This document shows, piece by piece, positions 1,522 through 29,689 of a DNA stretch of 38,999 nucleotides. The notes under the pieces were generated by a model. That model was not told where the DNA came from, did not search any database, and was given only the letters and a program-made list of their open reading frames with translations. The stretch spans positions 1 through 38,999 of the forward strand of contig JAUHXL010000012.1 of the NCBI GenBank assembly GCA_030426945.1. Reading direction: 5' to 3'. Within the stretch, counting starts at the first letter, position 1. Each line of letters starts with the position of its first letter. This stretch comes from a bacterium. GTDB lineage: Bacteria; Myxococcota_A; Bradymonadia; UBA7976; UBA1532. A program made the translations under genes and the position numbers.

Positions 1522-2514
1522 TCAGGGCGGAGGCGGTGAGGGGATGGCGGGGGGCGCGCCCGGCGGCGTGGGCGGGGCGCCGGGGATCGGCGCCGGCGGA
1601 GGCGGCGGCACCGGTCCCTTCAGCGGCGCGCCGAGCGGCGGCGCCTCGCCGTCGCCGCGGGCCTGCAGCACCAAGGTCACCGGCGTGCCCTTGGGTGGCA
1701 CGTGCTCCTTGTAGACCTCGTAGCCCAGGTCGTCGCCGCGGTAGGGGTTGCCGATGTCGCCCACGATGTTGACCACCGTCTGCTCGTCGGGGATCAGCCC
1801 CACGACGCTGCGATCGAGATCGGCCGCGTAGCGGTTGTTCCAGAAGACGCTGCCCTGGAAGCGCCAGGTCTGAGGCGGCGGCGCGCCCTTCGCTTTGCGG
1901 TTGTAGAGGAAGTACTCGGCGCGCTCCCGCCGCGTCTTGCCGTCGTGCGTCCACTCGACGTACAGGTCGAGCGGGCTGCCTGCCTTCGTGATGCTGGGCA
2001 TCTTGTTGGGATCGCTGCGATCCCACACGGTCGTCTCGAGGCCCACCAGCAGCAGGCCGAGGTGGATGTGGCTGGGCTCGGGCAGCACCTCGAGCACCGA
2101 CTCGTGCAGCTTCCCGTTCGACGCCACCGCGTAATACTCGAGGATGCCCTCGACCATGTTCAGCCGCGAGGGGATGTCCACCCGGCGCTGCTTGCGGTCG
2201 ACGAACACCTGACCGACGCGCAGCCGGTACTGGTCGATGCGCTGGATGGGCGGCGCGCCGGGCTTGTCCACCGGCTGACCCTCGGCGGCCTGATCGGACA
2301 GCGCGTTCAGATCCGCGGCCGACTTGGGCTCGCCGGCCGGGCGCGCGGGCGGCGGGGTGGGCGGCGGCAGCTTGAGCTTCTTGCGTCGACCGGCCGTGGC
2401 CGCGGCGTCCGGCGCCGCCGCGTCGGGCTGGTAGTCCTTCCAGCCGGGCGGCGTCTCCGGCTTCGTGCAGCCGGCGAGCGCGACGAGCAGGGCCAGGCGC
2501 GCGGCCGCCCTCAT
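1522..2514 (-). CDS. YdjY-domain lipoprotein with proline-rich tail
   Basis: Predicted 330-aa lipoprotein. The signal peptide (about residues 1-15) ends in a lipobox LAGC, so it should be lipidated and sit in the envelope. A Pro/Ala-rich linker follows. The central region (about 90-290) matches the YdjY domain by its order of features: a [16 protein letters not shown] segment, then [30 protein letters not shown], and later VFWNNRY and GDIGNP. YdjY is an uncharacterised domain found in Proteobacteria and Planctomycetes. The last 40 or so residues are almost only Pro, Ala and Gly. The ATG at 2514 overlaps the TGA of the upstream methyltransferase as ATGA, indicating translational coupling. The function is unknown; placement next to clpV does not prove a secretion role. 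Confidence 0.8.
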
Positions 2515-3518
2515 CGGCGCCTCTCGGCCCGCAGCACGGTGTAGTGGATGGGCGCCGGCAGGCGGGTGACCTCGGCGAGATCGAAGCCCGCGGCGTCCAG
2601 CCAGGCCCGGCACTCGGCCACGGTGTGGCAGCGCCCGTCGTGGGCCAGCACCCGCATGTTCAGCGCGAACATGGTCGCGAAGGTGGGCCCGGCGCGGTCG
2701 TCGTCGAGCATCACGTCGCTCAGGTAGAGCACCCCGCCGGGCTCCACCGCGTCGGCCACGGCGCGCAGGATGGCCTGCACCTGGGCGGGCTGCTCCCGGT
2801 GCAGCACCCCCGAGATGAGCGCGGCGTCGTAGCGGCCGGGCAGGGCGTCCCGGTAGTAGTCGAAGGCGGTGCACTGCACCCGGTCGCCCACGCCCATGTC
2901 CGCCACGATCTGGCGCGCGATGGCGACCACGCCGGGCAGGTCCAGCACCTCGGCCGCGAGGCCCGGCGTCTGCTGGCAAAGCAGGGCGGAGTAGGTGCCG
3001 GGGCCGCCGCCCAGGTCGGCCAGCCGCTGGCGCCCGGCCAGGTCGATCACCTGGGCCACCGCGCGCCCGACGCCCAGCGCCCGGTGGTGCATGCCGTAGA
3101 CGAAGTTGCGGGTGCGCTCGGCGTCGTCGCCCAGGTACTGGTCGGGGGCGCGCCTCACGTCGCCGCTGCGCACGACCCCGTCCAGGTCGCCCCACAGGGG
3201 GTAGATGTCGCCGTTGTACAGCAGGGCCGGACCGAGGTAGCCGGGCCGGCCCTCGACCAGGAAGGCGTCGGCGAGGGGCGCGTTGGTGAAGCACCCGTCG
3301 GCGTCCTTCTGGACCAGCTGCAGGCTGGCCAGCGCCGCGAGGAGCGCGTCGGTGGCCACCGGATCGGTGCCGGCGCGCTCGGCGACCGTCGCCGGGGCCG
3401 CGCCGCCGGCGGCGAGGTGCGTGAAGAGCTTCAGGCGGACCGCGGCCACCAGCGTGGCGCTGCCCCAATAGGCGGTCGCGAGCTCGATGAGCGGGGCGGG
3501 GTTCAGGGGGGCGTTCAA
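2511..3518 (-). CDS. SAM-dependent O-methyltransferase family protein (HIOMT/CrtF-like)
   Basis: A 335-aa cytoplasmic enzyme with the two-part layout of the acetylserotonin/hydroxyneurosporene O-methyltransferase family. The N-terminal winged-helix dimerisation domain covers about residues 8-90. The Rossmann methyltransferase domain has SAM motif I LADLGGGPGTY (about 166-176), an acidic residue ending the next strand (VLDLPGV), and GVLHREQP in the position of the family's catalytic-His loop. The TTG start at 3518 is supported by a strong AGGAGG six bases upstream. The substrate cannot be told from sequence; no polyketide or carotenoid genes are near. It is coupled to the YdjY lipoprotein through a 4-nt overlap. 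Divergent to the TPR gene starting at 3673. Confidence 0.82.
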   Translation of the reverse strand: MNAPLNPAPLIELATAYWGSATLVAAVRLKLFTHLAAGGAAPATVAERAGTDPVATDALLAALASLQLVQKDADGCFTNAPLADAFLVEGRPGYLGPALLYNGDIYPLWGDLDGVVRSGDVRRAPDQYLGDDAERTRNFVYGMHHRALGVGRAVAQVIDLAGRQRLADLGGGPGTYSALLCQQTPGLAAEVLDLPGVVAIARQIVADMGVGDRVQCTAFDYYRDALPGRYDAALISGVLHREQPAQVQAILRAVADAVEPGGVLYLSDVMLDDDRAGPTFATMFALNMRVLAHDGRCHTVAECRAWLDAAGFDLAEVTRLPAPIHYTVLRAERRR

Positions 3519-3672: not shown

Positions 3673-4383
3673 GTGAAGTGGCCCCTCTTCGGCCGAGGCC
3701 GGACGACGACGACGAAGGTGGAGGACGCCCCGGCGCCCCCGACCGTGGCCGCGCCGCCCGCGCCGCCCGCTGCGGCCGAGAGCGCGCCCCGCCGGGGCGG
3801 GTTCCGCTTCGAGGATCCCGAGGGCAGCGAGACCAGCCTGCAGGCGGCCGCGCCGCCGCCCCCGGTGGACGATCTGGCCGCGGTGGTGCGGCGCAAGACC
3901 GAGGGCCGCCGCCCGGGCCTGCGGGTGGCGGATCGCGGCGTGTCGCCCATGATGGTCGCCGGCATGCGGGAGCGCGCCGCGCTCTACCGGCTGGCCGCGG
4001 AGCAACGCGCCGAGACCGCGCCGGAGGAGGCGCTGGCGCTCTGGCGTGGCTACCTGGAGCTCTGCCCCACGGACGGTGAGGGCTGGTTCGTCTACGGGCA
4101 GTGCCTCGCCGACGGGGGCGAGCTCGACGCCGCCTGGAACGCCTTCGTCGAGGCCCGCCGGCACGCCCCCAGCCACGCCTACGCGGCCGCCGCGCTCGGC
4201 TATCTGTGTCAGGCGCGCGGCGATCTCGACGGCGCCTCGCGCTACTACGGTCAGGCCGTCGAGCTGGCCGAGGACGCCGCGCCCTTGCTCGAGAGCCTGG
4301 CCGAGGTTCAGGCGCAGAGCGGGTGCGAGGCCGAGGCTTCGGTCACCCGCGCTCGCCTCGCCCGTCTCCGCGCCGCCGACTGA
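3673..4383 (+). CDS. TPR protein with disordered proline-rich N-terminus
   Basis: A 236-aa protein starting VKWPLFGRG. Residues about 15-75 are rich in Ala, Pro and Thr and probably disordered. From about 100 to the end are alternating helices of TPR type: a segment with EEALALWRGYLELCP, then GWFVYGQCLADGGELDAAW, then YAAAALGYLCQARGDLDGAS. TPRs bind protein partners. I place the start at GTG 3673, preceded by GGAGG with a 9-nt spacer, rather than at the upstream in-frame GTG at 3607, which would add an unlikely 22-residue leader. The stop is only 37 nt before the TPR-CHAT gene, so both probably share a transcript and the proteins may interact. No signal peptide is visible; likely cytoplasmic. 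Confidence 0.75.
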   Translation: MKWPLFGRGRTTTTKVEDAPAPPTVAAPPAPPAAAESAPRRGGFRFEDPEGSETSLQAAAPPPPVDDLAAVVRRKTEGRRPGLRVADRGVSPMMVAGMRERAALYRLAAEQRAETAPEEALALWRGYLELCPTDGEGWFVYGQCLADGGELDAAWNAFVEARRHAPSHAYAAAALGYLCQARGDLDGASRYYGQAVELAEDAAPLLESLAEVQAQSGCEAEASVTRARLARLRAAD

Positions 4384-4420
4384 ACCCCACGCCCGCCCCC
4401 CTGCGGCTCCGGAGGCTCCT

Positions 4421-7393
4421 GTGAATCTCGCCACCATCGAAGCGAACAAGGCCCTGGCGCTCGACGCCTTCGCCCGCGGTGACCTCGAGGGCGCCGACGC
4501 GCTCTACGCGGAGCTCGAGCCCGAGTACACGCGGCACGGCCTGTCCGATGGCCTCGTGGCCCTGCGCTTCAACCGCCTGCTCGTGGCGCTCGAGGTGGGC
4601 GACCGCCGCAAGGTGTCGCGCCTGATGAGCGAGCTGGGCGCGGAGCTGCACGAGGCTCAGCAGGTCACGCCGACGCTGATCGAGGTGGCCACGCGCGTGT
4701 GCCGCCTGTTCGCCGATCCCTTCCCGGGCATCGACCACGCCGCCTCGGCCGGGCTGGTGGCGCTGGCCGCGGATCTCGCGCGCCCGTCCGCGCCCCCCGC
4801 CTCGCGGGAGGCGGCGCCCGACGAGCTGCCCGATCTCGACGCCGTCGCGCGCCTCGAGCCCCTCGACGCCGCCCTGGTCATCACCGGCATCGCCGACGCG
4901 CTGCGCGGTCGAGCGGGCCGGCCGTCGTGGGTCGCGGCCGTGCAGCGCGCCCTGGGCGATCCGGCGCCCCACGACGCCGAGGGGCAGGCCGCGCTCGAGG
5001 CCTTCGCCGAGGCCGCCCGGGCCCAGGACGACTTCCACGCCTACCAGGCCCTCGTCATCGCGTACGAGCGCGCCGCGGTGACGGCGCCGGCCCTGGCCGT
5101 CGAGCTGAGCATCGGCCTGCGCGCGCTGGAGCAGCGCGGCCTGCCCGACCGCCTGCGCTACACCGCGGCGCCCCCGGAGGAGCGGCGCCTGATGGTGACC
5201 GCCCAGCTGCACGGCCAGCTCGCCTGGGCCCTCGCCAGCGAGGCGGGCGCCGAGCGCGCGGCCGCGGGCCAGTGGCGCCTGGTGCGCGAGGCCGCCGATC
5301 GCTGGTTGAGCCTGGCGCGCGCGCGCCGCACGCGGGGCGGCGGGCGGGGTCGCGACATCGCGCGCGAGGCGCAGGTGTCCCTCTGGCGGGCGCGCGCGGC
5401 GCGGGCGGTGGGTGATCTGGCCGGCGCGGCCGCCGCCCTCGACGGCAGCCTGCGGCGGGCGCAGCGGCACGCCTTCGACGATCCCTTCGTGACGGCGCGG
5501 GTGCTGCTCGAGGCCGCGGTCGTGGCGGAGCGCCGGGACGCCGCGCGGGCGGACGCGCTCTTCGGCGAGACGGTGGACGTCGCGCTGCCCGGGCTGGACG
5601 CCGCGCTGCGCCTGGGGCAGCGCGCGTCGCTGGTCGACGAGGCCTGCCGCGAGGGCGGCGCGCCGCGGGTGGCGACGGCCGTCGAGGCGCTGGCCGGCCG
5701 CGCGCGCTGCGGCGACGACGCCGCCGCGGCGGAGCACCTGGCGGTCGCGCGCCTGCTGCTGGCCCTCGCCGAGCCCCACATCGCGCCGGCGGCCGCCGCG
5801 CGCACGACGCTGGTGCTCGAGCTGACCGCGGCGCGACGCGGCGAGCGCGACGCGGCGCTGCGCGCGCTGGAGGCGGCGCGCGCCCTCGAGGACGGCGCGG
5901 CGGTGGCCCTGGCCACGCTGTACCTGGGCCTCGCCGATCACGACGCGGCCGCTTCGCCGGGCGAGCGCGCGGCGGCGCTGGAGCGGCTGTGCGAGGCGGC
6001 CGTCGAGGCGCGCGCGCTGGGCGCGGGGGCGGTGCGACGCGGGGTCGAGACCACCGTGGCCCTCGCCCACCTCGAGTCGGGCGGCGCCGCCGATCCGGAG
6101 CGCGCGGAGATCCACCTGCGGCGGGCGGCCGAGGCGGCCGAGGGGCCGGCGCTGGCGGACGGGGCCGGCGCCTGGGACGTGATGCTGCCGCCACGCGCGC
6201 GCTGGGATCTGGAGCGCGCCATCGAGCGGCTGTGCGAGGGGGGCAACGCGGCGCTCGCCCGGCGCCTGTGTGCGGCGGAGCGGCGGCGCGCGCAGCGCCG
6301 CCCGGTCGCGACGGCGACGGCGCGGTACGCCGCCGAGATGGCGGCGGCCCATCGTCACCGCTTCGATGCCCGCTTCGTGCAGCGCGTCGAGGTCGAAGAC
6401 TGCTTCGATCTGTGGGCCCCCCTGCATCGGGCCCAGGGCGCCGACGGCTGGCCCCTGCGGGCGCCGCGGCCGGGCGAGGCCCGGCTCGAGTTCCGCGTCT
6501 TCGAGACCTGGACGGTGGGGTTCGTGGTCCTGCCCGACGGGGTGCGCATGCACCGGTGGACCCTCGGCCGAACCGGCCTCGGCCGCCACGTCGCGGAGCT
6601 GCGCGCCTGCCTGCGCGCCGGCGACCAGCCCCAGCGCCTGCGGCGGGCCACCGGCGCCCTGTACGACCTGCTGTGGGCGCCCTTCGTCGACGCGCTGGCG
6701 GGCGTCGGCCGCGTGGTCATCGCGCCCGATGGCCCCCTGTGCGGCGTGCCCTTCGCGCTGCTGGGGCGCGACACCTTCGTCGCCGAGACGGTGGATCTGG
6801 TGGTGGCGCGCCCGGCGCCGCCCCCGGCGTTCCTGGCCGACGATCCCGTCGCGCCGCCCACCGCGCTGCTGGTGGGCGAGGCCACCGTGCGCGATCTCGA
6901 GATCAGCACCCTGTGTGGGGAGCACGGGTGGTTCGAGTCCGTGTCCACCCGGATGGGCGACGAGCTCGAGGAGGACGGCCTGGTGCCGGCGCTCGCCCAC
7001 GCGCGCATCGTGCAGCTGGTGGGGGAGCTCGCCCCCGGCCCGGCGCTGACGCTCTGTGAGGAGCGCCCGCCGGTCCCCGTCGAGCGGGTGGCCGAGGCGC
7101 TCGCCGCGGGCGGCGCGGTGTGCGCGGTGCTCAGCGGCCCGGTCGAGGGATCACGGGGTCGGGCGGCGGTGGGCGGGCTGCTCGCCGGCGTGCGGGGCGG
7201 CGTCCTGGCGCGGCACGCGGCGCCGGACGACGACGGCGGCGTGCTGCTGCGCTTCCTGGCCAGCGCGGCGTCCGCCGAGGGCAGCTGGGCGCTGGTCGAG
7301 GCGCTGGGCGAGGCGCGGCGGGCGGCCATCGAGGCGGGCCTCGCGCCGGCCCAGTGGGGCGCCTACGAGCTGTTCATCGCCGAAGGGGAGTAG
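4421..7393 (+). CDS. TPR-CHAT protein with a degenerate (probably inactive) CHAT domain
   Basis: A 990-aa protein starting VNLATIEANKALALDAFARG. Residues about 1-650 are Ala/Leu/Arg-rich helical hairpins of TPR type. From about residue 690 the sequence follows the CHAT (caspase HetF associated with TPRs) fold: an ALYDLLWAPF helix, the strand VVIAPDGPLCGVPFALL, a lysine-free ALLVGEA turn, and the closing QWGAYELFI. The catalytic motifs are altered. The HxxxHG segment reads IVQLVGEL, with Gln865 and Glu869 in place of the histidines. The SAC...G segment reads LSGPVEG (from about 904), with Pro907 at the cysteine position. It is therefore probably a pseudo-peptidase or scaffold. GTG 4421 has GGAGG five bases upstream. 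It is paired with the TPR gene upstream and converges on the kinase gene. Active CHAT proteases occur in gasdermin and type III-E CRISPR systems, but neither is here. Confidence 0.75.
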   Translation: MNLATIEANKALALDAFARGDLEGADALYAELEPEYTRHGLSDGLVALRFNRLLVALEVGDRRKVSRLMSELGAELHEAQQVTPTLIEVATRVCRLFADPFPGIDHAASAGLVALAADLARPSAPPASREAAPDELPDLDAVARLEPLDAALVITGIADALRGRAGRPSWVAAVQRALGDPAPHDAEGQAALEAFAEAARAQDDFHAYQALVIAYERAAVTAPALAVELSIGLRALEQRGLPDRLRYTAAPPEERRLMVTAQLHGQLAWALASEAGAERAAAGQWRLVREAADRWLSLARARRTRGGGRGRDIAREAQVSLWRARAARAVGDLAGAAAALDGSLRRAQRHAFDDPFVTARVLLEAAVVAERRDAARADALFGETVDVALPGLDAALRLGQRASLVDEACREGGAPRVATAVEALAGRARCGDDAAAAEHLAVARLLLALAEPHIAPAAAARTTLVLELTAARRGERDAALRALEAARALEDGAAVALATLYLGLADHDAAASPGERAAALERLCEAAVEARALGAGAVRRGVETTVALAHLESGGAADPERAEIHLRRAAEAAEGPALADGAGAWDVMLPPRARWDLERAIERLCEGGNAALARRLCAAERRRAQRRPVATATARYAAEMAAAHRHRFDARFVQRVEVEDCFDLWAPLHRAQGADGWPLRAPRPGEARLEFRVFETWTVGFVVLPDGVRMHRWTLGRTGLGRHVAELRACLRAGDQPQRLRRATGALYDLLWAPFVDALAGVGRVVIAPDGPLCGVPFALLGRDTFVAETVDLVVARPAPPPAFLADDPVAPPTALLVGEATVRDLEISTLCGEHGWFESVSTRMGDELEEDGLVPALAHARIVQLVGELAPGPALTLCEERPPVPVERVAEALAAGGAVCAVLSGPVEGSRGRAAVGGLLAGVRGGVLARHAAPDDDGGVLLRFLASAASAEGSWALVEALGEARRAAIEAGLAPAQWGAYELFIAEGE

Positions 7394-7453: not shown

Positions 7454-8809
7454 TCACTGCATGAAGAACCACCAGGCGCCGGCGCCCAGCGCGGCGAGGA
7501 TGGCGACGCCGACGCCGACCATCATGCCGGTGTTCCCGCCGCGCTCCTCGGGGGCCTCCTCGCGGAAGGCGGTGGTGGGACCGGTCATCATGCGGGGCAG
7601 GGGAGCGCTGGCCGGTCGAGCCTCCGGCTGTCGGGGCGCCGCCGCGGCCGGTGCCGCCGGCGCCGCCTGCGCGGCCTGCCGCGCCGCCGACGCGGCGGGC
7701 TTCGCCACCAGCGCCTCGGCCGCCATCGCCTTGGCGATCATGTCGCTCGAGAGCTGCAAAGTCGCCGCCCCCTCGACCTGATCATCGGCGTCGGCCATCA
7801 GCTCAGCCAGCTCGTCGGGGTTCAGATCGAGGGACGCGTCACGCCGCTCGCGCAAGGTGTCGAGGCACTTCTCGAGGTCCTCCTTCACCTTGATCGCGTT
7901 GCGGTAGCGCTCCTCCTTCTTCTTCGACAGCAGCCGCAGGACCACCGCCTCGAGCTCCGGCGGGTAGCTCCAGTCCGACCGCATCTTCGACGGCGGCACC
8001 GGATCCTCGATGACGATCTTCGTCGCCACCTCGACGGCCGACTCGGCGAAGAAGGGCAGCTGCCCGGTCAGGGTCTGATAGAGGATGATGCCCAGGCTGA
8101 ACAGATCCGAGCGGTTGTCGAGCTCGAAGCCCTGCACCTGCTCCGGGCTCATGTAGGCCGGCGTGCCGCAGACGATGCCGTCGCGGGTCAGCGGCTGGTA
8201 GTCCTCGCCCGGATCGGTGATCTTCGCGATGCCGAAGTCCAGGACCTTGACGAAGTCCTTGGTGCGCCGGTGATCGTAACAGACGATGTTCGCCGGCTTC
8301 AGATCGCGGTGGATGATGTTGGCCGAGTGCGCCTCGTCGAGGGCCTCGCACACCTGGCTCATGATGTTCACCACCCGCTGGGTGGGCAGGGGCGAGTCCT
8401 CGGCGATGATCTGGCCGAGGTCGCGGCCCTGGATGAACTCCATGGCCATCCACAACAGGTCACCGTCGTCCTCGCGGCCGAAGCCGAAGATCGAGATGCA
8501 GTTGGGGTGGTTCAGGCGGCTCGCGGCGAGGGCCTCGCGTTCGAACCGCTTCACGACGGTCTCGTCGCTGACCAGGTTCGATCGCAGCACCTTCAGCGCG
8601 ACCTTCTTGCGCAGCTGGACCTGCTCGGCCTGATAGACCCGACCCATCGCGCCCTCGCCCACCAACGTCTCGATGGTGAAGGAGCCGCCGATGGTCCGCC
8701 CGATCAGCGGATCGTCGCCGCCGCCGTCATAGGTCAGCGAGCTGCCGCAGGCAGGGCAGAAGTTGGGTCGTCCTCGGACCGCAGCGCCGCATTTCGGGCA
8801 GCCGTTCAT
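7454..8809 (-). CDS. Zinc-ribbon Ser/Thr protein kinase with C-terminal membrane anchor
   Basis: A 451-aa Hanks-type kinase. An N-terminal zinc ribbon carries Cys4, Cys7, Cys18 and Cys21 (two CPxC knuckles). The kinase domain (about 42-310) has the glycine loop GEGAMG (51-56), VALKVL with Lys73, HRDLKPAN with Asp169, DFGIAK with Asp191, and GTPAYMSPEQ, so it should be active. A long linker rich in Ala and Pro leads to a C-terminal transmembrane helix (about 428-449) ending WWFFMQ. The domain is expected on the cytoplasmic side with a tail-type anchor. No PASTA or other external sensor domain follows; only a couple of residues would lie outside. The ATG at 8809 begins the zinc ribbon; a GAGG lies about 14 bases upstream. 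Substrates are unknown; nearby FHA proteins are candidate phospho-readers. Confidence 0.9.
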   Translation of the reverse strand: MNGCPKCGAAVRGRPNFCPACGSSLTYDGGGDDPLIGRTIGGSFTIETLVGEGAMGRVYQAEQVQLRKKVALKVLRSNLVSDETVVKRFEREALAASRLNHPNCISIFGFGREDDGDLLWMAMEFIQGRDLGQIIAEDSPLPTQRVVNIMSQVCEALDEAHSANIIHRDLKPANIVCYDHRRTKDFVKVLDFGIAKITDPGEDYQPLTRDGIVCGTPAYMSPEQVQGFELDNRSDLFSLGIILYQTLTGQLPFFAESAVEVATKIVIEDPVPPSKMRSDWSYPPELEAVVLRLLSKKKEERYRNAIKVKEDLEKCLDTLRERRDASLDLNPDELAELMADADDQVEGAATLQLSSDMIAKAMAAEALVAKPAASAARQAAQAAPAAPAAAAPRQPEARPASAPLPRMMTGPTTAFREEAPEERGGNTGMMVGVGVAILAALGAGAWWFFMQ

Positions 8810-9072: not shown

Positions 9073-9504
9073 ATGATGCGCAAGATGCTCGTGATGCTCG
9101 TGGCCATGACGTTCGTCGGCCCCCTGGGCTGCTACAACACCTACAACATCACCCTCGACGAGCTCGGCAAGGCGCAGGAGGGTGGCGACTCCAACGCCAT
9201 CAAGGTGAAGACCGATGAGGGCGAGGAGGTCGTCGTCACCGAGAACACCAAGCTCGGCGTCACCGACAGCGGCGGCACCTACCACGCCGTCTCGCCCTTC
9301 AACTTCACCCTCACGCGCGGGCAGCTCGTCGCGCCGGACGAGGATCTCCTGCTCCCGCGCGCGCAGATCGAGACCGGCAACGTGAAGGTCGTCAGCGGCA
9401 CGAAGACGGCGCTGCTGGTCGCCGGCGGCGTCGCCGCCATCGTCGCGGGCGCCCTCTTCATCACGCTGACCGCCGAGGACCGGAAGGAGTTCGGCGAGGA
9501 GTGA
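9073..9504 (+). CDS. Small predicted lipoprotein with C-terminal membrane segment
   Basis: A 143-aa protein. The signal sequence is a hydrophobic run (residues 5-18) followed by a lipobox-like PLGC with Cys20. The middle part is beta-like and acidic, with DEGEEVVVTENT and a Tyr/His/Pro turn. A single hydrophobic helix (about 116-135) precedes a charged end AEDRKEFGEE. Lipidation at the N-terminus and a membrane helix near the C-terminus could give two attachment points. ATG 9073 is chosen because it begins the signal peptide; a second ATG follows directly at 9076. I do not recognise the family. It is followed after 13 nt by the large TIG/VCBS lipoprotein gene, so the two may be co-transcribed. 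Confidence 0.7.
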   Translation: MMRKMLVMLVAMTFVGPLGCYNTYNITLDELGKAQEGGDSNAIKVKTDEGEEVVVTENTKLGVTDSGGTYHAVSPFNFTLTRGQLVAPDEDLLLPRAQIETGNVKVVSGTKTALLVAGGVAAIVAGALFITLTAEDRKEFGEE

Positions 9505-12729: not shown

Positions 12730-13935
12730 TCAGGCGAACAGCGCCGCGCGCGCCGCCCGGTCCAGGGGCGGCGTCGTCGCGAGCAGCGCCCCCAGCCGCC
12801 GGGCGCTCGGGAAGTCGCTCCGCAGCGTCAGCGCGCGCGCCAGCCGGGCCCGCGCCTGGTCGTCCGCCTCGAGCAGGAAGTCCACCACCGCCGCGTTGTA
12901 CAGCAGCACGGGGTTGTCCGGCTGGATCGACAGCGCCGTCTCGTAGGCGCGGCTGGCCTGATCGAGCTGTCCGCGCTTGCGGAACGCGATGCCCAGGTTG
13001 TTGAACAGGTCGGTCTGGCGCGGGTGGTGGCGGCGCGCGGCGTCGGCGAGCTGCGCGGCCTCGGGCAGGCGATCCTGCGCCAGCAGCAGCTCGGTCAGCA
13101 CGAGCGTCGCGTCCCACAGCGCCGGGTTCAGCCGCAGCGCGCGCTGGATCGCGGCCTCGGCCGGCGCCACCTCACCCGCCCGGAAGTGCTGGCGCGCCAG
13201 CTCGACCCAGGTGTCGGGGGTGTTCGGCGCCAGCTCCACGAGGCGCTGCAGGACGCGAAAGACGGCGTCGGGATCGTCCTGCGCGCGGACGACGTGGCTC
13301 AGCCGGCCGTAGGCCTTCGCGCACAGGGGCGAGCGCTCGACCACCTCCTCGAAGATGGCCCGCGCGTCGGCCAGCTGGCCTTGACCGGTCAGGGCTTCAC
13401 CCGCCCCGTAGAGGGCGGCCAACGACGCGGGCTCGAGCTGGCGCAGCCAGTTGTAGACCAAGAGCGCCTTGTCGAAGGCGTCCGCCTCGAGCAGCTGCCA
13501 GCCCCGCTTCAAGAGCAGCGCGAACTCGGTGGGGTTCTGCCGGCGCTGCCAGGCGGCGGCCAGGGTGGCCAGCAGCGCCTGCGTGGTGAAGGGCTTCTGC
13601 ACGAAGCCGCCGATGTCGTAGAGCTCCTCGAGCGCCCGCATCGCCGGGGTGACCTCGTCGGCCAACAGCACCAACGCGGCGTCGCGCAGGGCGTCGGCCC
13701 GGCGAAGGCGGTCGACGAACTCGACGCCCTGCATGTCGGGTTGATCCCAGTCCGCCACCAGCAGATCGTGCTTGCCGGCCGCCGCCGCGCGCAGCCACGA
13801 CCGGGCGTCCCGGGCGTAGTCGACCTGCGCGGCGCCCTGAGCCCTCAGCGGGCCGTGGACCATCGAGCGCAGCAGGTCGTTCGGGTCGAGCACCAGGAAA
13901 CGCGCTGACCGAAAGCGAGGGCCCGTGCCGTCCAA
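12730..13935 (-). CDS. Response-regulator receiver domain fused to TPR repeats
   Basis: A 401-aa cytoplasmic protein. Residues about 10-130 form a receiver domain: acidic pair region LVLDPND (Asp17, Asp20), likely phospho-acceptor Asp62 in VADWDQPDMQG, and Lys114 in VQKPF. The switch Thr/Ser after beta-4 appears to be Ala92 (LVLLADE), so the usual output switching may be altered. Residues about 145-395 are TPR helices, including a clear NNLGIAFRKRGQLDQASRAY unit. There is no DNA-binding or enzymatic output. It probably regulates a partner through the TPRs. The TTG start at 13935 has AGGAGG five bases upstream. No histidine kinase gene lies in the window; it is divergent from the cyclic-nucleotide-binding gene. 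Confidence 0.8.
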   Translation of the reverse strand: MDGTGPRFRSARFLVLDPNDLLRSMVHGPLRAQGAAQVDYARDARSWLRAAAAGKHDLLVADWDQPDMQGVEFVDRLRRADALRDAALVLLADEVTPAMRALEELYDIGGFVQKPFTTQALLATLAAAWQRRQNPTEFALLLKRGWQLLEADAFDKALLVYNWLRQLEPASLAALYGAGEALTGQGQLADARAIFEEVVERSPLCAKAYGRLSHVVRAQDDPDAVFRVLQRLVELAPNTPDTWVELARQHFRAGEVAPAEAAIQRALRLNPALWDATLVLTELLLAQDRLPEAAQLADAARRHHPRQTDLFNNLGIAFRKRGQLDQASRAYETALSIQPDNPVLLYNAAVVDFLLEADDQARARLARALTLRSDFPSARRLGALLATTPPLDRAARAALFA

Positions 13936-14022: not shown

Positions 14023-14051
14023 TTGTTCCGGGGACCGGCCGTTGGTAACCT
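14023..14051 (+). promoter_or_regulatory. Candidate promoter for tandem cNMP-binding gene
   Basis: TTGTTC (14023-14028), a 17-nt spacer and TAACCT (14046-14051), about 54 bases before the GTG at 14105 in the gap between divergent genes. Confidence 0.35.
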
Positions 14052-14104
14052 GCGGCCGGCCGCCCGCAGCCGGCGCCGAGACCGGCGGGGGAGACGACGT
14101 CGCC

Positions 14105-15358
14105 GTGAGCACCGACATGCCGTCCAGTCGTGAGGACGCCGAGCGTCAGCTACGGCTTTGCCTCGCGCGCATGCGCATCGCACCGCTCGATTTCCGCCTC
14201 CGGGTCAGCGCGGGGGAGCTGCTCGTCGCGCTCGGCGACAAGCAGCGCGGCATCCGCGTGCTGCGCAGCTGCGCCGACTACTTCACCCTGGCCGGCTTCC
14301 CCCTGCGCGCGCTGTGGGCCCTGAAGCTGCTCGAGCGGTACGACGCCGGGCAGGCGGTCGTCGACCGGGGCCTCAACTTGCTCGCGAAGCACTACGCGGC
14401 GACGCCGGACGCCGAGTGGGGCGACGCCATCTTCGAGATGCCCCTGCCCAAGACGGACGCGTTGAACCTCGACCTGCTGCCGCCGACCCTCGAGGGGGTG
14501 ATGGCCGAGGTCGATCGGCGGGCGACCGACATCATCCGGGGTGCCACCTTCCCGGACCGTCTGCCCCGCTTCCCGTTGCTGTCGGAGCTGGCGGCCGATC
14601 CTTTCCTCACGGTGGCGCGCGCCGTGCGGCTGCGGCGGGTGTCCGACGGCACGCCCCTCGTCGAGGAGGGGGAGCCGGGGCAGGCCGTGCACGTGGTGGT
14701 GACCGGCACGATGCGCGTCATCAAGCGCGGCGCCGAGGGCCTCGACACGGAGCTCGCGCGGCTCGGCGAGGGCGAAGTGTTCGGCGAGATGGCGCTGGTG
14801 ACCGAGTCGCCGCGGGTGGCGACGGTGATCGCCGAGGGCTCGGCGGATGTGTTCGAGCTGCCCCGCAGCGTGCTCGACGAGCTGGGCAACCAGGCCACCG
14901 ATCTCCAGGCGGCCCTGTCCAAGCAGGTCTGCGATCGCATGATCGGCAACCTGATGAACCTGTCGCCGGTCTTCCGCGTGCTGCCGCCGGACCGCCGGTC
15001 GGACCTGATGGCCCGCTTCCAGTCGCGCCTCGTCGAGGCGGACGACGACATCATCATCGAAGGCCAGGTCGGCAAGGGGCTCTTCGTCATCCTCGACGGC
15101 CTGGTGCAGGTCACCCGCCGCAAGAGCGGCCACAAGCACATCCTCAACTGGCTTCGGGAGGGCGAGATCTTCGGCGAGATCTCGCTGCTGCGGAACACCC
15201 CCGCCACCGCCACCTGCACCGCCGCGCGCCGCACGATGCTCATGTTCCTCGCCCGCGAGGAGTTCGAGGACATCACGCGGCAGTACCCCGAGGTCGTCGA
15301 GAAGATGAACGAGCTCGGGGAGTTCCGGCTGCTGGACAATATCTACACCCTGGCCTGA
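14105..15358 (+). CDS. Tandem cyclic-nucleotide-binding domain protein
   Basis: A 417-aa protein. Residues about 5-110 are helical, similar to a short TPR or solenoid. Two cNMP-binding domains follow (about 170-275 and 290-405). The first phosphate-binding cassette reads FGEMALVTESPRVAT and keeps the phosphate-contacting Arg237. The second reads FGEISLLRNTPATAT and has Ala367 at that position, so only the first pocket looks able to bind cAMP or cGMP in the standard way. There is no HTH or catalytic output domain. It resembles a regulatory subunit or sensor that acts through a partner. The GTG at 14105 is preceded by a GGGGGAGA stretch; an upstream in-frame start at 14042 would overlap the candidate promoter. 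Divergent to the receiver-TPR gene. Confidence 0.83.
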   Translation: MSTDMPSSREDAERQLRLCLARMRIAPLDFRLRVSAGELLVALGDKQRGIRVLRSCADYFTLAGFPLRALWALKLLERYDAGQAVVDRGLNLLAKHYAATPDAEWGDAIFEMPLPKTDALNLDLLPPTLEGVMAEVDRRATDIIRGATFPDRLPRFPLLSELAADPFLTVARAVRLRRVSDGTPLVEEGEPGQAVHVVVTGTMRVIKRGAEGLDTELARLGEGEVFGEMALVTESPRVATVIAEGSADVFELPRSVLDELGNQATDLQAALSKQVCDRMIGNLMNLSPVFRVLPPDRRSDLMARFQSRLVEADDDIIIEGQVGKGLFVILDGLVQVTRRKSGHKHILNWLREGEIFGEISLLRNTPATATCTAARRTMLMFLAREEFEDITRQYPEVVEKMNELGEFRLLDNIYTLA

Positions 15359-15958: not shown

Positions 15959-18900
15959 TCAGAGGGCGCCGAGGCCGACCAGATCCGTGATGAAGATCAT
16001 GTTGCTGATCTGGTCCTCCTGCAGTTGCAGGCGGTACTCCAGGCGGTCGAGCGCCGTCTCCAGCCGACCGCGCGTGATGCCCACGGGCAGATCGCCGTCC
16101 GCCAGCTGACGCATCATCTCGTTGCGCTGGGTCACCAGCTCGTTGCAGTACGAGACGGCCTGCCACGCGATGCTGGGCACGTTGGCGGTGCGGGCGGCGA
16201 CGAAGGTGCGCTGGGTCAGGGGGCTGGTGCAGCGCAAGATGTCGTCGGGGTTCGACGCGTCGACGTCGAAGCCGGTGAACCCGCCCTCCTCGAACACCCG
16301 CATCGAGTGCGTGAAGGTCAGGTCGTTGTAGTACGGCGTGTCGATCATCCCGTAGATGAGCGCGTAGACGTACAGCTGGGTCGACCCACCGGGCTCGACC
16401 ATCGAGCCGGGCAGGTTCTCGTCGTCGGGATCGAACTCGCGCTCCGCGTCGAAGAAGGTGCCGTCCCAGTACACCCGCTGCGACAGCTGCTCCAGGTCGG
16501 GGTCGAAGTGCTGGGCGACCTCGCCGAAGTCGCCCGAGGCGAACGAGCCGAGCACCTTCAGGAAGGCGCCGGGGAAGAAGTCGTAGAAGTTGAGCTGGAA
16601 GCGCTCGTCGTTGGCGCCGGTCACCACGCCCCAGTCGCGGGTGGTGAGCGTCGAGAGCGCCGCGATCTTGTCGTAGAAGACGCCCACGTAGGACAGCCGA
16701 TCGATCTCGCCGAAGTAGCCGCGCTCGTAGCTCGAGTAGACCGGCTTGCCCAGGCCCAGCGGGATGTTCACCACGTCCGCGTTGGTGCTGTCGGTCAGGC
16801 CGCGGTCCTGGTGCTCGTACATGCCGGTGAACTCGTTGAGCTGGTAGCTGCCCGACTCCGGCTGCATCAGCACGTTGCCGAGGAAGTCGAAGCCCACCAC
16901 CGTCGCGCGGAACATGTCGGTGAAGCCGCCGGGGCCCTCGTTCGACCGGAAGCCGGCCTCGTAGAAGTACTTGTAGAGCAGGGCCTGCATCTGGTCGCCG
17001 ATGACCGAGAAGTAGCGGCTCTGGATCCGGCTCAGGTAGCTCGAGATGTCGAAGTCGGCGCGGTAGCGGCGGAAGTTGTTGAAGATGAAGTTGCGCTCGT
17101 ACTGGTCGATCATGTTGCGCACGATCTCTTCGCTGCTCTCGCCCTCGTCGAAGCGGTTGCAGAAGGGCTGATCGCCCACGCGATCATCGCTGCAGAACAT
17201 CTGCCGAGGGTTGAACCGGGCGGCCACGCGCTCGTCGTCGTCCCAGTTCGAGCACACGCCCACGCCCAGCTCGGCGTCCTGACGGCAGCTCTGGCCGTCG
17301 CCCGCGTGGGGGCAGTCGCTGTTGGCCGAGCAGAGCTCGCCGCCGCGGTACCACTTCACGTGGGCGCGACCACCGTCGGCGAGCTGCGCGCGGCAGGCCT
17401 CGGGCGTCTTGCCGTTGCACTCCACGCGGTCCACGAGATCCGCGTACAGGAACCGCATGGCGGCCTTGTCGTACGAGCCCAGGCCCTGCCAGTCCGAGTA
17501 GTACATGGCGCCGTAGTCCATGATCGAGCTGTAGCGGTACAGCCGGATGCCGGCGTCCTCCTGCATGCGGCGCAGGACCTCGCGGTCCGCCTGCCACGCG
17601 TTGTAGCGGCCGAGGAACTCCAGGTCGGTCTCCTCGTCGTCGCGGAAGGGCTGCAGCTCGGGCGCCGGGCGCCCGTACTCCGCCTCGAAGGCGGCCTCGG
17701 TCTCCTGCTTGATCTGCCAGTACTCCGGGTGGAAGTTGGTCCGGTCGAAGGTGGCGATGAAGTTGTGGCGCAGGCCCATGTTGTGGCCCAGCTCGTGGAG
17801 CGTCACCGCGCGGAAGGACTGCTCGCGCAGCAGCTGCATCAGCTGATCGCGCTCCATGTCCGCGTGCTGGTTGACGAAGTGCCACAGGCCGTTGTCGTCG
17901 AACAGGTACTCGGCCGGCTCGAGGGCCTTGGCCGCGTACTTCAGCTTCTCGCGCTCACGCACCGCCACGCCGCTGTAGTGCAGGTCGAGGGGGTTGAGCC
18001 AGTCGAGCTCCGCGTCGGTCAGCTGGGCGCCCGTGCTCGCCCGGCCGCCGCTCAGCTCGCGCGCGAGCTCGTCGGGCACCAGCGCCCGGTCGAGGCCGGC
18101 CTCCTTGAGCCGCTCGCGCCGCAGGTGCAGCTTGCCCCGGTGGTGCTTGAGGTCGGTCATCCGGTTCTTCATCTCGGCCATGCGGGTCTCGAGATCCGGG
18201 TTCTGGGTGTAGTCGTACGCGGCCCCGGTGATGTTCCGGATCGGCGTCCGCGGCGCCTGCGCGTAGCCCTGCGCCTGCATGATCTCGAGCACCCGCAGGC
18301 CGCGCAGGTACTGGTTCTCGTCGATGGCGCCGCAGGACTTGGGCAGCGCGTCCCCGTCGCGCAGGTGCTGCGCGCACAGGATGTCGAGCATGTCGCCCAT
18401 GCGCGTGGTCAGGTAGTCGAAGCAGCCCGCGCCGTAGATGTAGGTGACGGCGTTGACCAGCTCGCCGGTCTCGGGATCGTTGGCCGGGCCGCCGACGCCG
18501 CAGGGCTGGGCCTGGCCCGGATCCTCGATGTAGGCGATGTAGTTGTAGCGCAGGTCCCCGAGGAACTGCTGGCCGTCGTTCTCGCGCAGCTCGAACGCGC
18601 AGTTGCCGGTCATGGCCCAGCTGTCCTGCGGCCCGCACTGGGCGGCCGGCGTGTCGCCGTTGCACACCACCTTGCAGCTGGTGGTCAGGTCGAGGTCCGG
18701 CACGATGCCCTGGAAGGCGTCGTTCCACTCCTTGGCGAGCGCGAACGCCATCGGCTTGAGGTCCGACGGGAAGGCCCGGTTGAGGTAGTAGACGATCGGC
18801 TTGAGGCCGCGCGCGGCGTGCGTCAGCGGGAGCGGCTGGCAGTCACCGCCGCTGCAGTCGTGGGTGCGGTCCCACATGTGGAAGCGCGTGGCCCGGTACT

Positions 18901-19933
18901 GTTTGAAGTCGGTCTCGCCGCGGCCATCGACGTAGGTGTTCTTCTTCACCCGCCAGATGCCGAAGCGCTCGAAGCTGGTGTCGGGGTAGTACTTGACCTC
19001 GTACTCGGCCTCGGGCGCCCGCTCGGGGACGCGCTTGAACGAGTACCGCATGCCGATCTCGGAGAGCGTGCAGGCCGGCCCGGCGCCGAAAAGGCTGGTG
19101 CGGAAGCAGGTGTTGATCGCGCCACCGCCGTAGCCGTCCTCGGGCACGAGGGTCATCCGCTGGGTCAGCAGGATGTTCTCGCCCTTCTCGAGGTCGATGA
19201 TCGGCGGGACGAAGCCCTCCTCACAGGTGCTGTAGTCCACCCGACCGTCCGGCTGGACGACGCGGCAGTCGCCCGCCTCCTCCTGCACGTAGTAGGGGGC
19301 CTCGATGTTGCCCACCCACCCCAGGTCCGCCTGAGCGTACAGGTTGAAGTTGGTGTCGCTGACCCCGAGGTCGGTCCAGTCGACGCGGATGAAGTCGCGC
19401 TCGTGCCAGGCCCGGTCGACGGTGTTCTCGCTGATCACGTTCGACTGCTCGCCCGTCACGGCGTTGTAGTCGCGCAGGATGTCGAAGTGGCTCTGGATGG
19501 CGAAGGCCGCGACGGGGTGGTCGCAGGGGAACTTGCGGTACGCGTCCCCAGGGGCGTCGTTCGCCGCCCGCGCTTCGGCCTTCTGCGGATCCTTCTCGTC
19601 GCCCTCTGCCTGCCCGTCGCTGTTGCTGCCGACGATCACCTCGTCGGCTCGGCAGGCGTACAGGCGGTCCTCCTCGATGCGCCAGCGAATCTTGATGGCG
19701 GGGAAGTCCTCGCCGAAGGTGTACTCCTGGCGATCACCGACGAAGGTGCCGGCGGCCTCGTAGGGCACGTCGACCACCGTTCGGGCAAAGTACCACTCAC
19801 CCTGGAAGAGGGACTTGGGCAGGGCGTTGGGCTGCGTCCGATCGACGTCGTCGACCGGCTCGGCGCAGCCGAGCGCCATCACCGCGGCGAGCGTCACCGA
19901 AGTCAGTACTGCCTCGAGGCGAATCGACACCAT
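15959..19933 (-). CDS. Large zinc-metalloprotease lipoprotein (metzincin type)
   Basis: A 1324-aa predicted secreted lipoprotein. The leader ends MALGC with Cys23 as lipid site. The catalytic helix is HELGHNMGLRH (His713, Glu714, His717, His723), the HExxHxxGxxH zinc motif. A Met-turn-like YSSIMDYG has Met805. This fits the metzincin clan and resembles bacterial zinc-dependent metalloproteases of the DUF4953/DUF5117 kind, which also carry a HExGHxxGLRHNF sequence. A long N-terminal region (about 30-650) with several Cys pairs precedes the protease. A Cys-rich segment (about 862-890) with CSANSDCPHAGDGQSC spacing follows the Met-turn. ATG 19933 is chosen because GGAGG lies five bases upstream. 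The likely site is the outer envelope; substrates are unknown. Larger than most relatives I recall. Confidence 0.85.
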   Translation of the reverse strand: MVSIRLEAVLTSVTLAAVMALGCAEPVDDVDRTQPNALPKSLFQGEWYFARTVVDVPYEAAGTFVGDRQEYTFGEDFPAIKIRWRIEEDRLYACRADEVIVGSNSDGQAEGDEKDPQKAEARAANDAPGDAYRKFPCDHPVAAFAIQSHFDILRDYNAVTGEQSNVISENTVDRAWHERDFIRVDWTDLGVSDTNFNLYAQADLGWVGNIEAPYYVQEEAGDCRVVQPDGRVDYSTCEEGFVPPIIDLEKGENILLTQRMTLVPEDGYGGGAINTCFRTSLFGAGPACTLSEIGMRYSFKRVPERAPEAEYEVKYYPDTSFERFGIWRVKKNTYVDGRGETDFKQYRATRFHMWDRTHDCSGGDCQPLPLTHAARGLKPIVYYLNRAFPSDLKPMAFALAKEWNDAFQGIVPDLDLTTSCKVVCNGDTPAAQCGPQDSWAMTGNCAFELRENDGQQFLGDLRYNYIAYIEDPGQAQPCGVGGPANDPETGELVNAVTYIYGAGCFDYLTTRMGDMLDILCAQHLRDGDALPKSCGAIDENQYLRGLRVLEIMQAQGYAQAPRTPIRNITGAAYDYTQNPDLETRMAEMKNRMTDLKHHRGKLHLRRERLKEAGLDRALVPDELARELSGGRASTGAQLTDAELDWLNPLDLHYSGVAVREREKLKYAAKALEPAEYLFDDNGLWHFVNQHADMERDQLMQLLREQSFRAVTLHELGHNMGLRHNFIATFDRTNFHPEYWQIKQETEAAFEAEYGRPAPELQPFRDDEETDLEFLGRYNAWQADREVLRRMQEDAGIRLYRYSSIMDYGAMYYSDWQGLGSYDKAAMRFLYADLVDRVECNGKTPEACRAQLADGGRAHVKWYRGGELCSANSDCPHAGDGQSCRQDAELGVGVCSNWDDDERVAARFNPRQMFCSDDRVGDQPFCNRFDEGESSEEIVRNMIDQYERNFIFNNFRRYRADFDISSYLSRIQSRYFSVIGDQMQALLYKYFYEAGFRSNEGPGGFTDMFRATVVGFDFLGNVLMQPESGSYQLNEFTGMYEHQDRGLTDSTNADVVNIPLGLGKPVYSSYERGYFGEIDRLSYVGVFYDKIAALSTLTTRDWGVVTGANDERFQLNFYDFFPGAFLKVLGSFASGDFGEVAQHFDPDLEQLSQRVYWDGTFFDAEREFDPDDENLPGSMVEPGGSTQLYVYALIYGMIDTPYYNDLTFTHSMRVFEEGGFTGFDVDASNPDDILRCTSPLTQRTFVAARTANVPSIAWQAVSYCNELVTQRNEMMRQLADGDLPVGITRGRLETALDRLEYRLQLQEDQISNMIFITDLVGLGAL

Positions 19934-20030
19934 CGCTTCCTCCGAAGCGCCCACGCGCGGGGCGCTCGTTGTCCATGTGCGGCCGGCAGGTCGGGGCCGC
20001 GCGGCCGGGCCAGCGCGGGGCGGGCGGGCA

Positions 20031-20060
20031 CTTCTAGCCGAGCGCCTCCGCGGGTGTCAA
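20031..20060 (-). promoter_or_regulatory. Candidate promoter for the metalloprotease gene
   Basis: On the minus strand a consensus TTGACA (20060-20055), an 18-nt spacer and TAGAAG (20036-20031). The start codon is about 98 bases downstream, giving a leader of roughly 90 nt. Confidence 0.45.
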
Positions 20061-20210
20061 CCGCGCAACACGCCGCAGGGTGGGTGTACGCGCGGCGTCG
20101 CCGGCGGTGTGGCCGGGTGTCCACGCGAGACGAGATTCTCGCCGGGGTCGCGTCGTGGCGGGCGCTCAGCTTTGCCGGCGACGGGGCCGATGTGGGGGAG
20201 GGGAGGCGAC

Positions 20211-20858
20211 GTGACCGAGCCCGAAGCGCCCAACGACGAGATCGAGCTGGTGGCCCTGCGCGGCGACGATCTGCGCCGCTGGGTCGGGCGGCTGACCCGG
20301 CGAGATGGAATCCACCTACGGGTGCGCCTGCCGAGCGGCGACCGACCGGCGGTCGGGCAGGAGGTGCTGGTGGTCGCGCGGGACGCCGCGGGCGGCGCGC
20401 GGCGGGGGCGCGCGGTGGTCGAGAACGCCGACGAGATCGGCGCCACCGTCACCCTGCGCGAGCCGCTGTCGCCGCCCGAGCGGCGGCTCTACGCGCGGGC
20501 GCGCACCCTGGCCTGGGTCCACGCCGAGCGCCTCGCGCCCGACGCGGCCGGTACGGCCCCCGCGGCGCGGGCCGCAGGCGCCGAGCCCAGGGGGGAGCTC
20601 GAGCCGCTCGAGCTGAGCCCGGCCGGCGCGCGCGTGGCCCTCCCCGGCGTCTGGTTGCCCGACGAGCGCGTCGAGCTGCACCTGCGCATGGCCCACGGGG
20701 GCGGGAGCGCCCAGCGCCTGCGGGTCCGCGGCCGGGTGGTGCGCACCGAGTCGGGGGACCCCCCGGCCGTCGTGATCCGGTTCGACGACACGTCGCCGGC
20801 GGTCATGGATCGGCTGGCCGACTTCGTGGACGCCTATCACGACCAGCGCCGCCGCTGA
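20211..20858 (+). CDS. PilZ-like (YcgR-type two-domain) protein, putative c-di-GMP effector
   Basis: A 215-aa cytoplasmic protein. Residues about 5-90 form a beta-rich N-terminal domain resembling the YcgR/PilZN flanking domain. The C-terminal part (about 92-210) follows the PilZ barrel: entry ERRLYARAR containing an RxxxR arrangement, then LELSPAGARV in place of (D/N)xSxxG, with Glu at the first position, and a closing strand VVIRFDD followed by a helix MDRLADFVDAY. It could bind cyclic-di-GMP, but the Asp-to-Glu change and the long insertion between the two motifs leave this open. GTG 20211 has GGGGAGG four to five bases upstream. It is 101 nt before the FHA gene, which appears to have its own promoter. 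Confidence 0.6.
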   Translation: MTEPEAPNDEIELVALRGDDLRRWVGRLTRRDGIHLRVRLPSGDRPAVGQEVLVVARDAAGGARRGRAVVENADEIGATVTLREPLSPPERRLYARARTLAWVHAERLAPDAAGTAPAARAAGAEPRGELEPLELSPAGARVALPGVWLPDERVELHLRMAHGGGSAQRLRVRGRVVRTESGDPPAVVIRFDDTSPAVMDRLADFVDAYHDQRRR

Positions 20859-20927: not shown

Positions 20928-20959
20928 TGAGGACCTTGGAGCCGCGGGGGACGCGCTCG

Positions 20960-22750
20960 GTGGCACGACTCGTCTACACGGACCGCGCCGGGCGGCAAAT
21001 GGTCCACGCGCTCGACTCACGGCGGGGGCAGACCGTCGTCGGTCGCCACCCCGACTGTGACATCGTCATCGCGGACGCGAGCGTGTCGCGCCGCCACTGC
21101 GCGATCGCCTTCGACGACGGCGGCTTCCGCATCGCCGATCTCGGATCGGCCAACGGCACCTTGGTCAACGACGTCCTCGTCTCGCGCCGCCATCTGGCCA
21201 ATGAAGACGTCGTGCGATGCGGCACCTACGTGCTGCAGTTCTTCGACGATCCGGCGCCCGCCCCCGCCGGCCGCGCCTTCCGCGACGCGCCGATCATGGA
21301 GACGCAGGTCGCGCGGCAGCCGCTGCCCGCCCCGCCGCCCGCGGTGGATCCGGCCGAGTACGAACGCCTCAAGGCCTTCAACGAGCGGCAGGCGGAGGCG
21401 CTCGGGCGCATCCAGGACGCGCTGGCCGAGGCGGAGGCGGCGCGCGCCGCCGCCGAGCGTTCGGCGGCCGAGGCGCGCGCGGAGGCCGAGGAGCTCGCGC
21501 GGCGCCTGGCGGCGGCGACACCCTCGGGCTCGCCCGAGCCCGAGCCCACGCAGGCCCTCGACCCGGTGGAGCCGGCGGCCGGGCCGCGGGTGACCATCAC
21601 CCGCGACAACGGCAGCACGCTGCCGGAGGCCGACGCCGCGGCGATGGCCAGCCGCGCCGCGCGCTTGATCGAGGAGAACGACCAGCTTCGACGCCGGATC
21701 GAGGCCCTGCAGACGGCGGCGCCCGCCGCGACGCCGCCGCCGGCCGATGGGCCGGCGGCCTCGCCGGACGAGGCGGCGAACCTGAGGCGCCAGCTGGATC
21801 GGATGCGGCGCGAGCTCGACGCGACCCGCGCCGGGCAGATGGCGACCGACGCCGAGCGCCTCGCGCGCGCAGCCCGGCTGTCGAACGAGCTGCGCGCCGC
21901 CGAGGCGCGCGCCGCGGCGACCGAACGCCGCGTCGAGCAGGTCGAGGACGAGCTCGCCGAGGCCGCGGCGTGGCTGAGAGCCGCGGGCGTGCGGCTCGGC
22001 GCCCTCGCCGACGCCGAGGGCCGCCTCGCCAGCGTGGAGGCCCGGGCCCGCGCTCGAGAAGACGAGGCCAAGGGGCTGCGATCAGCGCTCGACGAGGCGC
22101 GGGCGGCGGTCCACCAGACGTCGGCCATCCGGCGCCAGCTGCGCGCCGCGCAGGCCCGGCTCGAGGCGGTCGGCGAGGCGCCGCCCGGCCCGGACGCGAC
22201 GCCGCCGCCGGACGACGGCGCCGCCGAGGCGCGCGCCCGCCAGGCCGAGGCCGCGCTCATGGTGATGGAGCAGCGCCTCCACGCCGCCGAGGACGCCCTG
22301 CGCCGGGTGCGCGAGGCGCAAGAGACGACCGACGCGATGGATCCCGAGACGGCCGAGCGGATCCAGGGCATGCAGGCCCAGCTCGGCGCCGTCACGCGGC
22401 GGGCGATGATGATGAAGGCGAAGGATCTCGAGCTCGAGCGGCGCCAGGCGCAGATCCAGGCGCTCGAGGATCAGGTCCGCGTGGCGCGCGACGAGCGCGA
22501 CGCCCTCGAGCAGCAGATGCTCGAGCTGATCGTCACCCAGCAGCAGAGCGCGGCGAGCGAGTCGGCGCAGACGGTCCGCGAGGCGGTCGGCGCGGTCCTC
22601 GCCGCCTGGTTCGAGCTGCTGGACGCCGAAGGGGACGCGGTGGAGGCGGCGCGCGCCGACGTGGCGGCGGCGCTCGAGGCGCTCGACGCGGCGACCGGCG
22701 GCGCCGAGGCCGACGAGCCCACCCTGCCCCCGGAGACGATGGAGGCGTGA
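20960..22750 (+). CDS. FHA-domain protein with long coiled coil
   Basis: A 596-aa protein from GTG 20960 (an alternative TTG at 20936 adds 8 residues). Residues 1-90 form a canonical FHA domain with Gly28-Arg29, Ser43/His46 in SVSRRH and Asn65-Gly66 in LGSANGT, the residues that read phosphothreonine. From about 130 to 560 the sequence is dominated by Ala, Glu, Arg and Leu with heptad-like spacing, broken by Pro/Ala-rich linkers near 190-215 and 255-275, so it is mostly coiled coil. It probably links Ser/Thr phosphorylation to assembly of a cell structure; the zinc-ribbon kinase 12 kb away is one possible writer, by inference only. The TGA overlaps the GTG start of the glycosyltransferase (GTGA), so the two are coupled. 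Confidence 0.88.
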   Translation: MARLVYTDRAGRQMVHALDSRRGQTVVGRHPDCDIVIADASVSRRHCAIAFDDGGFRIADLGSANGTLVNDVLVSRRHLANEDVVRCGTYVLQFFDDPAPAPAGRAFRDAPIMETQVARQPLPAPPPAVDPAEYERLKAFNERQAEALGRIQDALAEAEAARAAAERSAAEARAEAEELARRLAAATPSGSPEPEPTQALDPVEPAAGPRVTITRDNGSTLPEADAAAMASRAARLIEENDQLRRRIEALQTAAPAATPPPADGPAASPDEAANLRRQLDRMRRELDATRAGQMATDAERLARAARLSNELRAAEARAAATERRVEQVEDELAEAAAWLRAAGVRLGALADAEGRLASVEARARAREDEAKGLRSALDEARAAVHQTSAIRRQLRAAQARLEAVGEAPPGPDATPPPDDGAAEARARQAEAALMVMEQRLHAAEDALRRVREAQETTDAMDPETAERIQGMQAQLGAVTRRAMMMKAKDLELERRQAQIQALEDQVRVARDERDALEQQMLELIVTQQQSAASESAQTVREAVGAVLAAWFELLDAEGDAVEAARADVAAALEALDAATGGAEADEPTLPPETMEA

Positions 22751-27645: not shown

Positions 27646-29574
<1,929 letters not shown>

Positions 29575-29594
29575 TCGGCTCCGAGCGGCGCGGG

Positions 29595-29621
29595 AGGCCG
29601 GTCCGGGGGGGCCGGCCTTTT
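29595..29621 (+). terminator. Intrinsic terminator after ftsH
   Basis: Stem AGGCCGG (29595-29601) with CCGGCCT (29612-29618), G-rich 10-nt loop, then TTTT. It separates ftsH from the folP operon. Confidence 0.65.
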
Positions 29622-29689
29622 GCGTTGTGTGCGTGGGATTTCGATGGGCGGGCGCGGCCGGAGGGCGGCGCCCGGGGGGACGAGACGCA

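Follow-up and report, generated by a model that had tools for sequence, protein, structure and literature searches.

The window, that is the whole 38,999-nucleotide stretch of DNA analysed here, encodes a 990-residue protein that combines N-terminal TPR-type helices with a C-terminal CHAT domain whose His-Cys dyad has been lost, and this loss is shared by the orthologs of the protein in one Myxococcota order. The protein is kept together with a small TPR partner and, as we propose, probably serves as a non-proteolytic scaffold in a membrane-kinase signalling module. The loss of the canonical dyad in the family is well supported by the aligned sequences, and the pseudo-CHAT domain is predicted to have no proteolytic activity.

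The host genome is 75.6% complete and consists of 772 contigs. The gene for the TPR partner of 236 residues (3673..4383, plus strand; Pfam TPR_14 with an E-value of 7e-7, also TPR_17 and TPR_2) is separated by 37 bp from that for the TPR-pseudo-CHAT protein (4421..7393, plus strand, GTG start). The GC content at third codon positions is 93–96% in both genes, as for coding DNA here. The pair faces a convergent gene on the minus strand (7454..8809) for a zinc-ribbon Ser/Thr kinase with a C-terminal TM-like helix (Pkinase, E 1e-47; Zn_ribbon_3, E 1e-4), the start of which was set at a conserved MNxCPKC, with the open frame extending to 8989. On the other side lies a divergent O-methyltransferase gene (2511..3518, minus strand; Methyltransf_2, E 1e-26), and beyond the kinase a putative lipoprotein gene (9073..9504, plus strand) that matched no Pfam family and was recognised by tblastn synteny in eight loci. 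No CRISPR-type Pfam family was present in those genes of the window that were scanned. The wider surroundings are rich in signalling genes (12733-13935, 14042-15355, 19815-20855 and 20936-22747), whose products are a response regulator that carries TPRs and proteins with cyclic-nucleotide-binding, PilZ and FHA domains. A protein of 1331 residues (15962-19954, minus strand) shows a weak Met-zincin (DUF4953) match, and an ftsH-folP-diadenylate cyclase (DAC) cluster occupies 27646-31395.

The C-terminal third of the 990-residue protein had been assigned to the CHAT fold in an earlier note, and both sequence profiles and predicted structure agree with this assignment. The window copy gives a score of 24.0 bits against PF12770 (E 1.1e-4 in a genome-wide search), which lies at the 24-bit cut-off; the match (6647-6817) is confined to the N-terminal part of the profile, its first fifth (positions 3–63), and hmmscan of the window protein reported no CHAT. 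PF12770 matches six of the 13 orthologs (best E 6e-11), and TPR_12 three of them (best E 1e-7). A profile of the C-terminal 391 residues aligned by hhalign with a profile of active CHATs at a probability of 98 and an E-value of 1.2e-13 over 278 columns. Judged at the sequence level, the CHAT assignment is weak in the window copy and firm for the family. No member of the family, in any of the 13 cases, has a Pfam match to Peptidase_C14 p20, and a DUF2249 match (E 0.006, below the cut-off) was put down to chance.

An AlphaFold2 model built from six orthologs presents the C-terminal region as an α/β domain with a moderate pLDDT of 72. Its top PDB matches in Foldseek are nearly all Craspase TPR-CHAT proteins and separases (7y8t_B, E 5e-7), and no viral structure matches below 1e-3. 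Since the TM-scores are low, about 0.35, the fold was assigned from the Foldseek ranking and E-values in combination with the sequence profiles. In the full-length model (mean pLDDT 74), paired helices run from residue 3 to residue 670 and are followed directly by the CHAT domain; residues 791–886, the former His site among them, are poorly modelled. This model matches separase, Craspase and DdvA, and also unrelated LGN-type TPR proteins. The predicted structure has the TPR-CHAT architecture, with a TPR-type superhelix at residues ~1–670 (4421..6430, plus strand; also indicated by TPR_12 and Foldseek) and a CHAT domain of the caspase/separase type at residues 686–990 (6476..7393, plus strand).

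The earlier note had placed Gln865 and Glu869 at the histidines of the HxxxHG motif and Pro907 at the cysteine of the SAC motif. These positions and their numbering proved exact in the alignment with HxxTHG and S-A/G-C of active CHATs. The catalytic histidine in the CHAT/separase clan is the one preceding the glycine, and hence the informative positions are 869 (codon 7025..7027) and 907 (7139..7141), while Q865 (7013..7015), at the first and non-catalytic histidine, says little. The 13 orthologs, drawn from two families within the order, carry E, A, T, D or R at position 869 but in no case His, and at position 907 twelve of them have Pro and none has Cys, so that both the HG histidine and the SAC cysteine are absent in all 13. 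Position 865 is His in seven orthologs and varied in the rest, and Q865 is thus peculiar to the window copy. Conservation of the three residues, which had been a question, therefore holds for Pro907 and for the lack of His at 869; Gln865 and Glu869 themselves vary.

Both residues of the dyad are kept in the five other CHATs of the window genome and in nine more copies from related genomes. The same holds for the other strong CHAT matches in the order that were aligned, a comparison that leaves aside a few weak partial matches. The loss is more than chance, since it is found in 13 of 13 orthologs and the active-type CHATs that could be read fully have the dyad. No better alignment restores a His-Cys pair: the CHAT part of the 13 orthologs contains no conserved column of His or Cys, and a shifted dyad was rejected because C902 (in 'VCAV') and H/Q865 are unconserved.

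Orthologs of similar length, with 23–53% identity, are present in 12 related genomes, and relatives covering most of the length occur as one copy each in 13 of the 16 genomes of the order. No full-length relative was found outside the order, either in 41 further genomes of the class or in 141 genomes sampled evenly across the phylum; in these genomes only active proteases matched, through their CHAT part. Among the genomes searched, the family is confined to a single Myxococcota order. Metagenome-assembled genomes make up the nearest relatives that carry names, and three of these bear the label Myxococcota or Myxococcales. A search for related loci with a single protein gave no matches, and an alignment of nine rows varied too much to yield patterns; with a six-row alignment as the query five named MAG loci were recovered. 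The contig of the same-genus genome G001 that carries the methyltransferase neighbour ends inside the TPR gene, and the absence of the pseudo-CHAT gene there was attributed to an assembly gap rather than to gene loss. The number of CHAT matches per genome varies widely, with 23 in G009 and 31 in G012, whereas G002 and G004, which belong to the same family, have none over the threshold; at locus L069 (contig C442 of G011), in a genome without the pseudo-CHAT module, three successive large genes each carry an intact CHAT.

A maximum-likelihood tree built from the CHAT part unites the pseudo-CHATs in one clade with a support of 100/100, which splits along the two families of the order and follows taxonomy. 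For the closest pair, dS is about 0.6–0.7 and dN 0.10–0.15, alike in the TPR and CHAT parts, which gives a dN/dS of about 0.2 in each half. The stretch around the former cysteine is among the best conserved, and that around the His site is poorly conserved in the second family. By these measures the pseudo-CHAT is evidently under purifying selection, as had been suspected from the window copy, in which the fold seemed to be retained and catalysis lost. The single clade, the low dN/dS and the conserved former-Cys stretch are most simply explained by one old loss event followed by selection for the fold.

In the small partner, a basic and aromatic N-terminus (KWPLFGRGRTTTTKVED) is followed by a disordered linker, which bears a G-G-F-x-F-E motif, and by TPRs at the C-terminus. 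An ortholog of it lies upstream of the pseudo-CHAT gene in every genome where the contig reaches, and the basic/aromatic N-terminus is common to these orthologs. In most partners of the window's family the linker also contains F-x-F, and the TPRs are preceded by a VPSLREQALVYR-like segment. Conservation of the methyltransferase and lipoprotein neighbours is seen in the window's family only, the methyltransferase being 69–76% identical in seven related genomes and 80% identical in the same-genus genome. The pair in G002 (locus L030) is directly beside folP, DAC and YbbR-like genes, which is a housekeeping region and not a mobile or defence island.

The kinase gene is convergent with and adjacent to the pair in the window and at eleven loci of relatives, so that the two neighbours expected to travel with the pseudo-CHAT gene do so, the TPR partner wherever it can be tested and the kinase in nearly all cases. 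Identity of the adjacent kinases to that of the window is 64–80% in the window's family and 27–30% in the second family. In spite of the latter values, the idea that the second-family kinases are not orthologs was rejected by own-genome ranking: for all three of them, the window kinase was the best of 12 own-genome kinases tested, with 135 against 98 bits in the case of G014. The motifs HRD, DFG and VAxK are intact in the window kinase and its family. In the second family (genes at L033:5510-7012, L034:5288-6670 and L035:3-1490), HRD is HGD, DFG is D-L-A or D-P-C, and the zinc ribbon is lost. The second-family kinase seems, from these motifs, to be drifting toward an atypical kinase or a pseudo-kinase of uncertain activity.

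What, then, is a protease fold without its dyad kept for? A dead and well-kept protease fold, a TPR superhelix and a fixed TPR partner make a scaffold the best reading, and the retention of the kinase, even at an unlinked locus, suggests this kinase as the one served by the scaffold. The linkage to the kinase is weaker evidence than the pairing with the TPR gene, because the convergent genes do not make up a single operon and because the neighbourhood in the window's family is conserved beyond the triad. It is conceivable, though we hold it to be the less likely case, that the protein acts as a scaffold within the TPR pair alone and that the kinase is a frozen neighbour with no functional link. 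This would fit the conservation of the other neighbours and the situation in G002, in which the TPR and pseudo-CHAT genes stay together and a 60%-identical kinase (next paralog 44%) is located on another contig. Against it, the kinase is adjacent in both families despite strong divergence, and it persists in an unlinked position but is missing from the genomes that lack the pair: G004 and G011, which have no TPR/pseudo-CHAT pair, contain only paralog-level kinases of at most 43% identity. These two genomes are of one genus, and their absence counts as one loss event.

The protein might still be an enzyme, if a catalytic group at another place in the CHAT domain, or of another kind, supported proteolysis or a different activity. 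The family does have invariant residues, such as P754, P777, L826 and W979, and RR966-967 is nearly so; these are, however, mainly structural and common to active CHATs (PDGPLxxLPF and the final tryptophan). Against a relocated centre, the domain has no conserved His or Cys, C902 and the first histidine being variable, and we regard a retained activity as unlikely. Some pseudo-caspases dimerise or compete with active paralogs, and a decoy acting in trans on active CHATs of the same cell would find targets in the window genome, with its five active-type CHATs, and in some relatives, with 20–30. This role is disfavoured to about the same degree, because G002 (87% complete) keeps the pair and has no CHAT reaching an E-value of 0.001, unless an assembly gap is responsible; moreover, the second family has very few CHATs, with two or three matches including the pseudo-CHAT itself. 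Still less probable is a decaying relic that is carried along without function. In its favour, the CHAT half has gone past recognition by Pfam in about half of the members, and the His-site stretch of the second family is poorly conserved. Yet full-length frames are open in every ortholog whose contig permits, dN is well below dS, nearly every genome has one copy, and the partner genes are conserved across the order.

In the scaffold that we favour, a dead TPR-CHAT protein ('pseudo-separase') would have been fixed in the ancestor of the order and kept for binding partners through its TPR superhelix and CHAT fold, with the small TPR protein as a standing subunit and operon partner. The module would be tied to a membrane-anchored Hanks-type kinase, which may phosphorylate, or dock on, the TPR/pseudo-CHAT pair, the contact possibly being made by the juxtamembrane tail of the kinase or by the Thr-rich N-terminus of the small partner. 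Rather than cut, the CHAT domain could then serve as a switch that works by binding or by a change of conformation. Complex formation, phosphorylation and the role of kinase adaptor are all predictions from gene content and conservation. More speculative, and in our estimation rather doubtful, is a core-genome hub of the whole order, in which kinase, TPR adaptor and TPR-pseudo-CHAT protein form one complex and the former protease fold has become a switch controlled by phosphorylation.

CHAT domains are treated as proteases in the annotation of defence and cell death. A lineage-fixed dead CHAT, retained as a single-copy core gene with a kinase, would indicate that the fold is useful beyond cutting, and a CHAT match alone is insufficient for calling a protease. 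With one loss, long conservation and defined partners, the family offers a natural case for the passage of a caspase/separase fold to a scaffold.

Among the known systems that come closest is Csx29, the protease of Craspase (type III-E CRISPR), which likewise consists of a TPR superhelix and a C-terminal CHAT domain and provides the best structural matches (7y8t, 7xsr and 8d9f). Csx29 has a His-Cys dyad, H585/C627 (PMC9729208), that the pseudo-CHAT protein does not have. It works with gRAMP and Csx30, whereas the pseudo-CHAT neighbours examined show no CRISPR gene; the protein is not encoded with gRAMP/Cas7-11 and Csx30, and PADLOC gave no match for it. Eukaryotic separase (C50; 9hm7 and 9hma in Foldseek) also joins helical repeats to a caspase-like domain, but is an active protease, while the pseudo-CHAT has E869 and P907 at the His and Cys positions. 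DdvA, titled a 'transmembrane anti-sigma factor' in PDB entries 8rot and 8rw5, is by those titles a CHAT protein in signalling. It keeps HG and AAC in the aligned sequence, in contrast to the dyad-less pseudo-CHAT, and is named transmembrane, whereas the pseudo-CHAT model goes from TPR helices directly to CHAT.

Bacterial pseudo-orthocaspases are C14 p20 proteins without the HC dyad that are conserved in bacterial lineages, mostly Alphaproteobacteria and Cyanobacteria, sometimes with TPRs and commonly with Tyr or Ser substitutions (PMC6426788). They belong to the p20/C14 family, unlike the window protein, which is of the CHAT type and has Pro in place of the Cys. Both caspase-clan pseudo-enzymes and the TPR-CHAT architecture are already known. 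A conserved pseudo-CHAT scaffold family had been thought new in the earlier note. Its conservation stands, within one Myxococcota order, and its scaffold role is our proposal; as to novelty, no paper on pseudo-CHATs was found in the literature searched, in which pseudo-orthocaspases (PMC6426788) came closest and already represent pseudo-enzymes of the clan. Neither NCBIfam nor PADLOC nor that literature yielded a dead TPR-CHAT that is fixed in a lineage and accompanied by these partners. Among the CHAT-fold matches is also PDB 7sqc chain R, a chain of 2070 residues in the Chlamydomonas C1 central pair, which possibly represents a eukaryotic CHAT-like domain in a structural scaffold.
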